This document shows, piece by piece, positions 43,112-50,462 of a stretch of DNA of 64,000 nucleotides. Under the pieces are notes generated by a model. That model was not told the origin of the DNA and ran no database searches. It saw nothing but the letters and a program-made list of their open reading frames with translations. A program made the position numbers and the translations under genes. Numbering within the stretch: position 1 is the stretch's first letter; the number at the start of each line of letters is the position of its first letter. Source of the DNA: Alkalidesulfovibrio alkalitolerans DSM 16529 (lineage in GTDB: Bacteria > Desulfobacterota > Desulfovibrionia > Desulfovibrionales > Desulfovibrionaceae); NCBI RefSeq assembly GCF_000422245.1, contig NZ_ATHI01000004.1, positions 1 through 64,000 on the forward strand, given 5' to 3'.

Positions 43112-45142
43112 TTACTCCTGCGTCTTCAGTTCGTGAACAAGTTTTTGCAGTTCCTGGGACTGGCGGGCCAGTTCGGTGATCGCCGAGGCCGCCTCGGCCA
43201 TGACCTGCGAGGTTTCCATGGATATCTGGCTGATCTCGTCCACGGAACGGTTGATCTCCTCGGATGTCGCGGACTGCTGTTCGGCGGCGGCCGCGATGGA
43301 CGAGACTTGGCCCGAGGTGTTGCCGACGATGCCAACGATTTCCGCGAGGGCCTTGCCGGATTGTTCGGCCAGGGCCGTGGATTCGCCTACGGACTTGGCT
43401 GCGGCGTGAGTGGCCTCCACGCTCGATCGCGCGTCACGCTGAATGGAGGAGATGGCTTGGCCGACCTCCTTGGTGGCGTTCATGGTCTTCTCGGCGAGCT
43501 TGCGCACCTCGTCCGCGACCACGGCGAAGCCCCGTCCCGCATCGCCCGCGCGTGCGGCCTCGATGGCGGCATTGAGCGCCAGGAGGTTGGTCTGGTCCGC
43601 TATGTCCTCGATGACCGTGATGATCTGGCCGATGCTCTCGGCCTGGCGGCCCAGGCTCTCCATGGTCGTCTGCAGGGCCTCGGTCTGCGTCTTCAGTCCG
43701 CCGATGGCCGAGATGACCTGCCCCACGGAGCGTTCGCCCTGGTTGGCCTGCGCCTTGGCCTTGTCGGCGTCCACGGCCGATTGCGAAGCGTTGCGCGCGA
43801 CTTCCATGACCGTGGCGTTCATTTCTTCCATGGCCGTGGCCGTCTCGGCCACGCGGGCGTTTTGCCGCTCCGAGCCTCGCGCAGCCTGCTCCACCTGGCG
43901 GGAAAGCTCCTCGGAAGCCGAGGTCATGCGTTCGACCACGACCTCGATGTGCCCGGCCGCCTGGAGCATGCCCTCTCGTTTGGCTTGTTCGGCCTTGCGC
44001 TTGGCTTCTTCGGCCTCGTCCGAGGCCTTTTTACACAGCGTGGCCTGCTCTTCGGCCTCGCGTGTCTTGGCTTCGGCCGTGGCGATCATCTCGCGCAGGC
44101 TTTTGACCATGGCGTTCAGCGAGGCCGCGAGCACGCCGATTTCGTCCTTGTTGGCGATGGTCAGCGTTCCGTCGAGTTTGCCGCCTGCGATGTCCGAGGC
44201 GAATTCAGAGGCGCGGCGTACGGGGTTGGCCAGGGAGCGGGCGAAGATCACGGCCAGCACGGCTACGATCAGGGTGATGATGCCGGAGACGACGAGGATG
44301 GCGTTGACGATTTCGCGCTGTGTTTGCTCCACGATTTCGCGTGGCGCGCCAATGAAGAGCATGCCGCTGGTCTTGCCGTCGGCGGAGACGATGGGCCAGT
44401 AGGCTGTGTCGTACATCCGGCCCAGGATCAGGTTCTGGGCGATGAACTCGCGCGAGTTTCTGAGCACGGTCTCGATGACCGCGGGGTTGTCCATCTTTGT
44501 GCCGACGGCGCGCTGCCCCTGGCGCATGATGGTCGTGGCCACGCGCATATCGTTGTCGAAGATGGTGCACTCAACGCCGATGCGCGACTTGATGCTGTCC
44601 ACGAAGCTCATGGAGCCGAGGTCCACGCCCGGGGTGACGACGCCCACGACCCGCCCCGCGAGGACGATCGGTTGTCCGGCGCGCAGCGAGAACTTGATCA
44701 CGGTGCCGGGTTCGATGCCCACGGATGCCTCGCCGCGCAGGGCTTTTTGCACGTTGATCTGGTTCGCGACCGAATCCCCGGTCCTGTCGGAGTGGCCGCG
44801 CGCGAGGACCGTTCCCCGTGCGTCGGAGATGGTGACGAACTCGATCGCCGAATTCTTCATCATGCCTTTGGCGACGGAAGCAAGAAAGGCGGAGTCTCCC
44901 TCGGCCGCAGCCTGCGCCACTGCCGGGTTTTCGGCCACCAGTCTGGCGGAGAGGGAAAGCATTTCGCCGATGTCTTTGATCTCGGCGTCCACGCTTTGCC
45001 GGAAGTTCCGGATCTGCACCAGGGACTGTTCGTCGAAGCCCTGGCTCACGAAATGGTTGACGCTGTAGGTTATGCTCGCGGTGAGCACCGCGATGACAAT
45101 GAGGATGAACGATAGGACCTTCCAAAAGATTGAGAGCTTCAT
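43112..45142 (-). CDS. Methyl-accepting chemotaxis protein, Cache type
   Basis: 676-residue chemoreceptor. N-terminal membrane helix (about 9-28), periplasmic dCache/double-PAS-like domain ([41 protein letters not shown]), second membrane helix (about 286-308), HAMP domain, a long coiled coil rich in Glu/Lys/Ala (about 355-400), and the signalling tip [20 protein letters not shown]. The signalling hairpin is nearly identical in sequence to that of the heme chemoreceptor at 32.5 kb. No C-terminal pentapeptide. Ligand unknown; dCache domains usually bind amino acids or small organic acids. Monocistronic, with a long AT-rich region upstream. Confidence 0.94.
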
Positions 45143-47680: not shown

Positions 47681-48511
47681 TCAGGCGCTTTTGCCGTCTC
47701 CGGCCTTCTCTGCCACGTGCACGTAGACGATGCCCGAGAGCAGCGGATGCCACAGCACCCGGTCGAATCCGGCGGCCCGCATCTCGCGGCCGAGTTCGCG
47801 CGCGTCGGGAAAGTTGCGGATGGTGTCCGCCAGGTAGCGGTAGGCGTCCGAGTCGCCCGAGACCAGTCGCCCGGCCATGGGCAGCAGCCGGTCCAGGTAG
47901 AGGTTGTACAGTCCCTTCCAGATGCGCGTCCGGCCGCTGCCGAATTCCAGCACGCACAGCCTGCCGCCGGGCTTGAGCACCCGGAAAAGCTCGGCGAAGG
48001 CCTGCTCGCGGGGCACGATGTTGCGGATGCCGAAGGCGATGGTCGCGGCGTCGGCGCAGGCGTCGGGCAGCGGCAGCACGCGGCCGTCCGCCAGGGCGGG
48101 CAGCACGCGGTCCGAGAGGCCGCGTGCTGCGACCTTGTCGCGGCCGCGTGCCAGCATGGGCTGGGCGAAGTCCAGGGCCAGCACGCGCGCGTCGGGGAAC
48201 TGGCGCAGCGCCGTCAGGGTCACGTCCATGGTCCCGGCCGCCAGGTCCACGAGCAGGCCGTTTCGCGGCAGACGCAGATGCCTCACCAGCCGGTGCCGCC
48301 AGTAGATATCCTGGCCGAGCGAGAGGCCGTGGTTCAGGATGTCGTACCAGCGGGCGATGCGGCCGAACATGGCCGCCACGCGGTGGCCATGGCCGTCGGG
48401 CGAAGATGCGCTGGAGGCGTGCGTGGAGCCGGACGGCGCAGGCGCGTCCTGCCCGGCCGGGGTCTCGGCGGGAGCGGGACGGTCCTCACCGGAATTACGG
48501 GGCGTGGTCAC
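47681..48511 (-). CDS. ubiE: UbiE/MenG-type quinone methyltransferase
   Basis: SAM-dependent C-methyltransferase of the last step of menaquinone synthesis. Family blocks: FGRIARWYDILNHGLSLGQD, LVDLAAGTMDVTLTALRQFP (SAM-binding glycine motif), and IAFGIRNIVPREQAFAELFR with the characteristic FGxRNxxD-like motif. The proposed GTG start overlaps the stop of the small upstream gene (GTGA) and gives 276 residues, but the first 35 are low complexity, so translation may begin closer to MFGRIARWYD. It belongs with ispB, mqnB and the UbiA-type gene functionally. Confidence 0.9.
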   Translation of the reverse strand: MTTPRNSGEDRPAPAETPAGQDAPAPSGSTHASSASSPDGHGHRVAAMFGRIARWYDILNHGLSLGQDIYWRHRLVRHLRLPRNGLLVDLAAGTMDVTLTALRQFPDARVLALDFAQPMLARGRDKVAARGLSDRVLPALADGRVLPLPDACADAATIAFGIRNIVPREQAFAELFRVLKPGGRLCVLEFGSGRTRIWKGLYNLYLDRLLPMAGRLVSGDSDAYRYLADTIRNFPDARELGREMRAAGFDRVLWHPLLSGIVYVHVAEKAGDGKSA

Positions 48512-48684
48512 GACTTGCGGCCGCCCTCGGGCGTTGCCGCCTCGGCCGTCAGGGTGCGCAGAACCTCTTGGTAGATGGGGGCGAAGTGGTCGCTGAAGTT
48601 GGCGGGCGAGATGCGCTGCACCTCGATGAACTTGACCACGATCTCCTTGGCCACCTGAAGGGCGAGTTGCCTGTCCTTGTCCAC
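48508..48684 (-). CDS. Small conserved-type protein, 58 aa, function unknown
   Basis: Short frame immediately before ubiE. The GTG start has an excellent ribosome binding site (GGGAGG, 7 bases upstream) and the protein begins (M)DKDRQLALQVAKEIVVKFIE, with a helical centre (SPANFSDHFAPIYQEVLRTL) and a basic end. It overlaps the ubiE start (GTGA), so it is probably translationally coupled to it. I do not recognise the family. The longer frame reaching 48828 has a low-complexity N-terminus and is rejected. Confidence 0.8.
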   Translation of the reverse strand: MDKDRQLALQVAKEIVVKFIEVQRISPANFSDHFAPIYQEVLRTLTAEAATPEGGRKS

Positions 48685-48864: not shown

Positions 48865-49983
48865 CTAGTCGTCTTCGTCCAGCGTCTCGGCCAGGGCCGC
48901 GATTTCCTCGCGGATGATCCGGGCCGCCGCCGCCGGGACGGCCTTCTCGATCACCGCCACGAGGTCGGTCTTGATGGCCTCGCGCAGCGAGGCCGAGACA
49001 TCGTCGAGCCGCCGCGCGAGCACGCGCTCCACGGCTTCCTCGATGCCGTTCGTCTCGGCTGCCGCGTCCGCATCGGTCGCAAGGCCCGTCCGTCCGGCCT
49101 CCAAGGCTGCCAGACGCCCCTCGATGCCGTCGAGAGAAGCCAAACGCGCCTCCAGGGCCTCGATACGCTGCGCGTCCACGCTGGCGAGCGGGGCGGGCGT
49201 GGCCTCATCCAGGGAAATATCCGTGTCGATGTCCTTCAAAAGTTTGTCCAGGTCTTCCTCTGTTTCGTCGAAATCCAGCGCGACCGGCTCGTCTGGACCA
49301 GGCGTTTCGGAATCGGCGACCAACGCAGCATCCTCGACGCGGGGCACGGGAGCCTTTTCTTCTCCGGCCTCGTCGGTGGCGGCCAGCAGGGCTTCGATGT
49401 CGTAGTCCGTGTCATCGGCTTTTGGGGCGGACGCTGGGGCAACTGCCGGTTCCGGCTCGTCGTCGGGCAGGTCCGCAGGTTGCGCGTCGTCGAGTCCGGC
49501 CAGCAGGTCGTCGATGTCGTCCTGGGAGGCGGCTTTCGTCTTTTTCGGCTCCACGTCGGTCTCGTCCGGTGTTTCGCCCGGCGCTTCGTCGTCGAGTCCG
49601 GCCAACAGGTCGTCGATGTCGTCCTGCGAGGGCGGTTTGAGCGATCCGCCGGGGGCGCCGCCGAGCATGGCTTCGATGTCGTCGTCCGAGGTCGCCTTGC
49701 CGCCGTTCATGTCGGCCAGGAGGTCGTCAAGCCCGTCCATGTCGATTTCGTCGCCCGCGCCGCCGGAATCGGAGTCGTCAGGCAGGTCGATGTCTCCCAT
49801 GCCCTTGAGGTCGCCGTCCCCAGCGTTTAGGAGATCGTCGAGCGAGGCGTCGTCATCGCCGCCCCCGAGCAGGTCGTCGAGGTCGGCGTCGCCGTCCCGG
49901 ACCTTGCTGGGATCGCCGGGCTCAAGAAGATCGGTGAGTTCGATGATCTCGGCGTTGGAGACGTTGTTGGACGATTTGGCCAT
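48865..49983 (-). CDS. Acidic repeat protein with FliM-like DDIDDLL motifs
   Basis: 372 residues, very acidic. Two copies of SQDDIDDLLAGLDD (about residues 118-131 and 152-165) and about six degenerate copies (for example DADLDDLLGGG, DASLDDLLNAG, SDDDIEAMLGG, DTDYDIEALLAA, EEDLDKLLKDI) are spread through the first 255 residues, separated by Pro/Glu/Asp-rich linkers. The C-terminal 110 residues form a predicted coiled coil (ARLASLDGIEGRLAALEAG onward). The S-Q-x-x-I-D-x-L-L core is the same as the CheY-binding N-terminal motif of FliM. I do not know the function; a CheY or polar-scaffold partner is an inference. Monocistronic. Confidence 0.85.
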   Translation of the reverse strand: MAKSSNNVSNAEIIELTDLLEPGDPSKVRDGDADLDDLLGGGDDDASLDDLLNAGDGDLKGMGDIDLPDDSDSGGAGDEIDMDGLDDLLADMNGGKATSDDDIEAMLGGAPGGSLKPPSQDDIDDLLAGLDDEAPGETPDETDVEPKKTKAASQDDIDDLLAGLDDAQPADLPDDEPEPAVAPASAPKADDTDYDIEALLAATDEAGEEKAPVPRVEDAALVADSETPGPDEPVALDFDETEEDLDKLLKDIDTDISLDEATPAPLASVDAQRIEALEARLASLDGIEGRLAALEAGRTGLATDADAAAETNGIEEAVERVLARRLDDVSASLREAIKTDLVAVIEKAVPAAAARIIREEIAALAETLDEDD

Positions 49984-50063: not shown

Positions 50064-50462
50064 CTACTGGTTCTTCGGATGGCAAGCAGTGCAGGCCGTG
50101 GGGACGTTGGTCTTGCCGGCCTGGCGCTCGACCCTGTGGCAGCCCATGCAGGAGATGGTGCTCTGCGGGGCGTGGAACGCGGCGTAGTAGGAAGCGCCGC
50201 CTTTCTTTTCCTTCATGTCGGTGTGGCAGCCAGCAGTCGAGCAGGACTGGATGTCGCCCTTGCCGTCCCACGTGTGGTGGCACGCGGTACACTCGAGAGC
50301 ACCGTGCGCCGTGTGGGAGAACTTGATCGACTGCTGCGTCTTGGTCGCGCCCTCGGGCAGCTTGACGTACTCGTCTCCGGGGGCCTTGGGGGCGGCGATG
50401 ACCGCGCCGGCCACGAGGAGCACGGCCGCCAAGGCCAGGCTCAGAATGGTGAATTTCCTCAT
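50064..50462 (-). CDS. cycA: Tetraheme cytochrome c3 (type I)
   Basis: Periplasmic electron carrier that links hydrogenases to membrane complexes in sulfate reducers; 132 residues with a Sec signal peptide (cleavage probably after VIA). Four heme sites are present: CTACHH, CSTAGCH (the CxxxxCH type), CMGCH and CTACH, and axial His residues lie in FSHTAHG. The CxxCH/CxxxxCH mixture and spacing identify class III cytochrome c3. The ribosome binding site is GGAGG. Monocistronic, with its own terminator. Confidence 0.96.
   Translation of the reverse strand: MRKFTILSLALAAVLLVAGAVIAAPKAPGDEYVKLPEGATKTQQSIKFSHTAHGALECTACHHTWDGKGDIQSCSTAGCHTDMKEKKGGASYYAAFHAPQSTISCMGCHRVERQAGKTNVPTACTACHPKNQ

Follow-up and report, generated by a model that had tools for sequence, protein, structure and literature searches.

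The first 64,000 nucleotides of contig NZ_ATHI01000004.1 of Alkalidesulfovibrio alkalitolerans DSM 16529, hereafter the window, carry on the minus strand an open reading frame (ORF) with an ATG start (positions 48865–49983) that encodes an acidic, scaffold-like protein of 372 amino acids, as judged from the ORF list and from its relatives. The protein belongs to a family with two conserved ends, an acidic middle of variable length and a C-terminal helix similar to the tails of PopZ. We tentatively propose, at somewhat less than an even chance, that it is an acidic cytoplasmic scaffold which assembles itself and acts in the manner of PopZ. As far as our literature searches show, the family is undescribed and of a known general kind: searches of titles and the beginnings of abstracts on PopZ together with Desulfovibrio or deltaproteobacteria, on polar scaffolds and on FliM-like CheY motifs did not reveal a description of this protein, nor did similarly narrow searches yield any account of an organising hub in cells of the Desulfovibrio type. 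With its PopZ-like plan and its mostly single copy, the protein would be a concrete and testable hub candidate in Desulfovibrio.

Architecture and distribution of the family

With 107 aspartate and glutamate residues as opposed to 26 lysines and arginines and a pI of 4.05, the protein is indeed the acidic chain that a preliminary description of this DNA had made of it. Neither a signal peptide nor a membrane segment was seen by reading the sequence, and the protein has no named family in Pfam or NCBIfam. Its sole Pfam line, Sugarporin_N (E 0.0095), did not reach the cut-off and was rejected, as were VASP_tetra and other scattered Pfam matches of family tails, each confined to one member, and the only four matches of a PDB profile search (E 3.6–5).

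The features of the gene and its neighbours described below all lie on the minus strand. Near the N-terminus, the conserved element EIIELTDLLE (residues 12–21; 49921–49950) was recognized in the alignment and by a loose pattern among 49 members of the family. It is followed by an acidic low-complexity region (residues 22–250; 49234–49920) with about eight repeats of the D-D-[IL]-[DE]-x-L-[LI] type; residues 1–250 have a net charge of −0.256 per residue, and proline makes up 8% of the chain. An AlphaFold model was built from a 35-row alignment, from which three sequences truncated by start choice (L053, L069 and L072) were omitted; its mean predicted local distance difference test (pLDDT) is 62.2 and its predicted template modelling score 0.28. 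The chain is mostly of low confidence to about residue 240, and short helices are predicted at seven of the eight repeats. Two longer helices are predicted beyond, a coiled-coil-like one at residues 267–307 (49063–49185; block pLDDT 58–80) and the conserved C-terminal one at residues 314–370 (48874–49044), with block pLDDT 91–96 over residues 321–370. Low pLDDT and composition together suggest that the acidic body is disordered, so the model is consistent with the earlier notion of a disordered chain with a coiled-coil end. The most conserved core, VPAAAARIIREEIAALAE (residues 349–366; 48886–48939), stands out by its invariant columns and resembles the C-terminal helix of PopZ.

We sampled 119 genomes of Desulfovibrionaceae from 44 genera, 99 of them near-complete. 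A search with the single sequence matched only 16 of the 119, including the genome of origin, whereas a profile built from the C-terminal 60 residues found a match in 108 of the 119, in 93 of the 99 near-complete genomes and in 43 of the 44 genera, once per genome except for two matches in G067. A single-sequence search of a contig collection gave no confirmed relative, and relatives were found by a search with the tail alignment. The 39 named loci come from Desulfovibrionaceae and other groups of Desulfovibrionales, among them Desulfohalobiaceae, Desulfonatronum, Desulfonatronovibrio, Desulfonatronospira and Desulfoplanes; the counterpart in Desulfovibrio vulgaris is presumably the gene with locus tag DVU3172. 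A draw across the phylum gave matches in 17 of 395 genomes, 16 of them of the same family, in a draw whose composition by Desulfovibrionales family is not established. The seventeenth match (G424) lies, by reading, inside a phosphoribosyltransferase-like ORF and was rejected.

Forty-nine distinct members were compared, after removal of L040 (no family ORF), L051 (no ORF by the pattern used), L058 (wrong frame) and the duplicates L045, L046, L050 and L052. In the loose form [DE]-[IV]-[IL]-[DE]-L-T-[DE], the N-terminal element is present in 43 of the 49 sequences as cut, up to residue 130, a count that has no chance control, and is often followed by FExELExLF (28 of 49). A stricter DNA pattern of this element has two matches in the genome of A. 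alkalitolerans, the second of them inside an ORF that reads as tRNA synthetase-like. The N-terminal alignment comprised 15 members, with L034 left out, and the tail alignment (A2) 27 of the 49 tails, picked for diversity. At the C-terminus the consensus is xxVPxAAARIIREEIAALA, in which P, A, A, I, R, E, E and I are invariant in the 35-row alignment; single members deviate, L041 lacking the P and G006 having IQEE. Both ends are thus conserved and the middle is variable. The 49 sequences as cut span 287 to 1334 amino acids, the shortest of them being truncated by start choice, as are L053, L069 and L072. The smallest member read, from G006, has 190 amino acids and retains DEIIELTD and the slightly changed tail, with no repeats. 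The longest (L042, about 1334 amino acids) has, by reading, a long helical middle and keeps both conserved ends. In some relatives (L009 in G023, and G111, G113 and G367) the match contains an in-frame TAG; the gene may be broken there, the match wrongly extended, or the stop an artefact.

A scaffold is the most economical reading of a protein with short conserved motifs at its ends, an acidic chain whose length is free to vary and a helical tail that is conserved. The C-terminal helix would oligomerise, the disordered acidic chain would hold the assembly expanded, and the short amphipathic helices in the chain would offer repeated low-affinity docking points; the EIIELTD element may be a conserved client- or self-binding motif. 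Such a protein could form condensates or scaffolds, bind clients and take up a polar position. Relatives would share this plan with very different linker lengths, and repeat number would rise by local duplication, multiplying in some lineages. Being carried once by most of the sampled genomes, the protein looks like a general cell-organising scaffold and not like a part of the chemotaxis machinery. Strong negative charge, a single copy in most genomes and the lack of a named family would also fit a non-scaffold protein that acts as partner in, or regulates, a process of the cell envelope, division or the nucleoid, for example, an acidic DNA mimic or a coiled-coil-tailed adaptor. We consider this unlikely, as the range from 190 to over 1300 amino acids and the lineage-specific repeats would be unlike most DNA mimics.

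FliM-like repeats and chemotaxis

The repeats had first drawn attention to this gene. Two exact copies of SQDDIDDLLAGLDD are present, at residues 119–132 (49588–49629) and 153–166 (49486–49527), and the six or so weaker copies that had been described with them were recovered as well, four by a regular expression (starting at residues 83, 101, 194 and 243) and two by eye (LDDLL at residues 35–39 and 48–52). The DNA around the exact copies is 90% identical over a 52-nucleotide reference at a spacing of 102 nucleotides (102 bp), so these copies look like the result of a local duplication.

The preliminary description had likened the core of these copies to the N-terminal motif by which FliM binds phosphorylated CheY. 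In PMC5677366, the CheY-binding FliM motif is given as LSQxEIDxLL. The window copies read [PA]SQDDIDDLL: S-Q-x-[DE]-[IV]-D-x-L-L is matched in both, but the leading leucine is missing and D takes the place of E. In the family's own bacteria, FliM begins with M-x-K-[IV]-L-[AEGQ]-QDEVD[AI]LLRGL in all 28 N-termini that were read (31 loci were tried and three yielded none), and Q-D-[DE]-[IV]-D-x-L-L-x-G-L is common to FliM and the window copies. The latter are internal and repeated, in a protein that has no FliM domain, and S-Q is preceded in them by P-P or A-A. Isoleucine, valine or leucine at the position of the FliM [IV]-L pair was found in none of the eight copies in motif-bearing members of the family, as opposed to all 28 FliM sites. 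The earlier match stands for the core of the motif and fails for the residues in front of it and for its terminal position.

Composition shuffles reached the best FliM-core score of the window protein (37) in one of 2000 cases, a significance that is overstated because this null ignores the acidic-hydrophobic phrasing of the chain. For eight of the 49 members, no more than 1% of their own shuffles reach the score. Four of the eight are those that carry the glutamine, and the other four attain such a score through generic acidic repeats. This split indicates a genuine but local resemblance to FliM, to which the acidic repeat contributes as a side effect; the FliM-like letters may be a local version of that general repeat. 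The motif was read in the 49 distinct members and in the ten genomes that lack FliM and keep the gene. Q[DE][DE][IV]D.LL is present in only four of the 49, with one to three copies each (two in the window protein, three and one in two congeners and two in a genome of another genus). Within the genome of A. alkalitolerans the strict pattern occurs nowhere else, and a relaxed pattern has six places: besides the two copies and FliM there are three more, and the two of these that were read sit in ORFs which by reading are neither flagellar nor chemotaxis genes.

FliM was found in 104 of the 119 genomes. The gene is kept in 10 of the 15 genomes without FliM, and nine of these ten have no match to the CheW domain, G003 having three. 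Restricted to near-complete genomes, eight lack FliM, six of them keep the gene and all six are without a CheW match. The ten keepers were read individually and all carry the family tail, slightly changed in G006. Retention in genomes devoid of both FliM and CheW indicates that the core function of the family is probably not chemotaxis.

A multivalent sink for phosphorylated CheY, or a chemotaxis scaffold, in this genus would have the SQDDIDDLL copies bind, titrate or cluster CheY as FliM does. The core resembles that of FliM from the same family (QDDIDDLLAGL and QDEVDALLRGL), the glutamine is retained in all eight copies of the four motif-bearing members, each of which has FliM, and, as noted, the strict pattern is unique to this gene within its genome. 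That genome possesses flagellar and chemotaxis genes, with 7 CheW-domain and 95 receiver-domain matches, and among near-complete genomes the gene is somewhat commoner where FliM is present (87 of 91) than where it is lacking (6 of 8), a difference that also counts against the general, non-chemotactic role favoured here. Set against this are the missing [IV]-L pair before [AS]-Q, the internal site, the absence of the motif from 45 of the 49 members and the genomes that keep the gene without FliM and CheW. We therefore judge a CheY sink very unlikely, and see in a lineage-specific CheY contact of the four motif-bearing members a possible side role. Of the earlier interpretation as a CheY sink or polar scaffold, the scaffold half has gained from the acidic low-confidence chain, the conserved helical tail and the single copy, and the CheY half is weak and mostly unsupported. 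The case illustrates that a short motif seen in a single genome may be misleading unless its conservation in the family is checked.

The window also contains two chemoreceptor signalling hairpins (43112–45142 and around 32959, minus strand), in keeping with the several chemoreceptors that had been ascribed to this genome; the receptor ORF at 43112–45142 has Cache-type, HAMP and MCPsignal domains.

The conserved locus and its neighbours

The gene order is HemL, CbiG, CobJ, cytochrome c3, the acidic-protein gene, a small protein, UbiE and a UDP-sugar dehydrogenase. Upstream, cytochrome c3 is found in 35 of 37 loci, CobJ in 26 of 35, CbiG in 21 of 29 and HemL in 14 of 25; downstream, the small protein is found in 24 of 34, UbiE in 22 of 32 and the UDP-sugar dehydrogenase in 13 of 31. 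These counts include L058 and cover named loci with enough room on the contig; they were obtained by tblastn with the window's own proteins, which misses divergent copies. The cytochrome c3 gene (50064–50462; Pfam Cytochrom_CIII) lies between the cobalamin and haem genes and the acidic-protein gene, immediately upstream of the latter in nearly all named relatives, with no obvious functional link. The small conserved neighbour (48508–48684), a possible partner, has 58 amino acids if GTG at 48684 is its start; the longer ORF of 106 amino acids has no Pfam match at E ≤ 1. In relatives it is strongly conserved, with the consensus KQALQVxKEIVVKFIEVGRISPxNFxExFxxIYxEVLxTI.

Such conserved neighbours could point to an acidic disordered tether tied to cytochrome c3, cobalamin and haem synthesis or UbiE, for example, in the assembly of a cofactor enzyme complex. 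Among the ten keepers without FliM, the small protein and UbiE are nearby in G003, G026 and G059, and the cytochrome in G059, G070 and G114. In the other five (G006, G012, G053, G091 and G102), however, no usual neighbour was detected within the 5–8 kb examined, although in two of them the contig is no longer than 12 kb. Cytochrome c3 is periplasmic, whereas the acidic protein shows no signal peptide by reading. A tether of this kind appears quite unlikely to us.

Comparison with PopZ and other hubs

The scaffold proposal draws on PopZ, the polar organizing protein Z of Alphaproteobacteria, with which the family appears to share a short N-terminal region, an acidic linker and a C-terminal helical end. 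In hhalign, the tail profile aligned end-on with four PopZ tails, two of which are 98% identical, with a score of 21.5, a pairwise P of 2e-4 and a probability of 45%. As controls, 300 column shuffles reached at most 14.0, and the highest value among 145 single-sequence decoy windows was 11.9. The PopZ profile scored a median of 18.4 (range 10.1–26.1) against the 49 family tails and a median of 7.9 against 343 helical windows upstream of them. The Rhizobiaceae tail LPTLVERLVREEIERVA has a P-x(5)-[LI]-[VI]-R-E-E-I type end, as in the family, and [EV]-[VI]-L-E-L-[TS]-D, a counterpart of the N-terminal element, was seen in the Sphingomonas and Caulobacter sequences.

Several results weigh against this proposal. 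Family tails score as low as 10.1 and one upstream helical window reaches 19.7, and the column shuffles are a lenient null because they destroy the helical pattern. The full Caulobacter PopZ alone gave E 0.1 and a probability of 0.6% in hhalign, and its tail alone scored 11.8, which is not above the best decoy, so that the tail signal stems from Rhizobiaceae and Sphingomonas, whose tails score 24.2 and 18.3. PF10691 (DUF2497), the Pfam family of PopZ, had no match over its cut-off in the 119 genomes; its 28 places at E ≤ 1, compared by eye, all lie elsewhere than this gene, the window protein itself has no such match at E ≤ 1, and, of the 29 Pfam families matched by 16 tails, the 25 listed do not include PF10691. 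The best DUF2497-like place, in G015, proved to be a different gene and was rejected. An N-terminal helix of the [ED]EILASI type was absent from the 15 family N-termini read, which have EIIELTD instead, and AlphaFold predicts the tail as one long helix with no clear helix-turn-helix. The linker charge is similar to that of PopZ, for which PMC9512792 reports −0.28 per residue; the proline content (8%) lies below the 23–29% reported there.

Beyond the missing PF10691 match and MEEILASI-type helix, the family differs from PopZ in a linker that is usually longer, less proline-rich and furnished with acidic helix repeats, and in its neighbours, the Sinorhizobium copy being flanked by tolC and valine-tRNA ligase. 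In that Sinorhizobium pSymB record (L161), the PopZ-like gene is unannotated, and its start and end were read in two different frames. It seems quite unlikely that the Desulfovibrionales possess a near-universal PopZ-like organiser, as a distant homologue or a convergent twin of PopZ outside the Alphaproteobacteria, whose linker has in one genus gained FliM-like peptides that bring CheY to this hub.

Acidic polar hubs, such as those of the HubP/FimV type, likewise use a long acidic chain as a hub. The window protein is set apart from them by description, having no membrane segment by reading and no Pfam match of that type. Since Caulobacter PopZ matches weakly and PF10691 is blind to the gene, we describe the protein, from its sequence and tentatively, as one that would work like PopZ, and refrain from classing it as PopZ itself.
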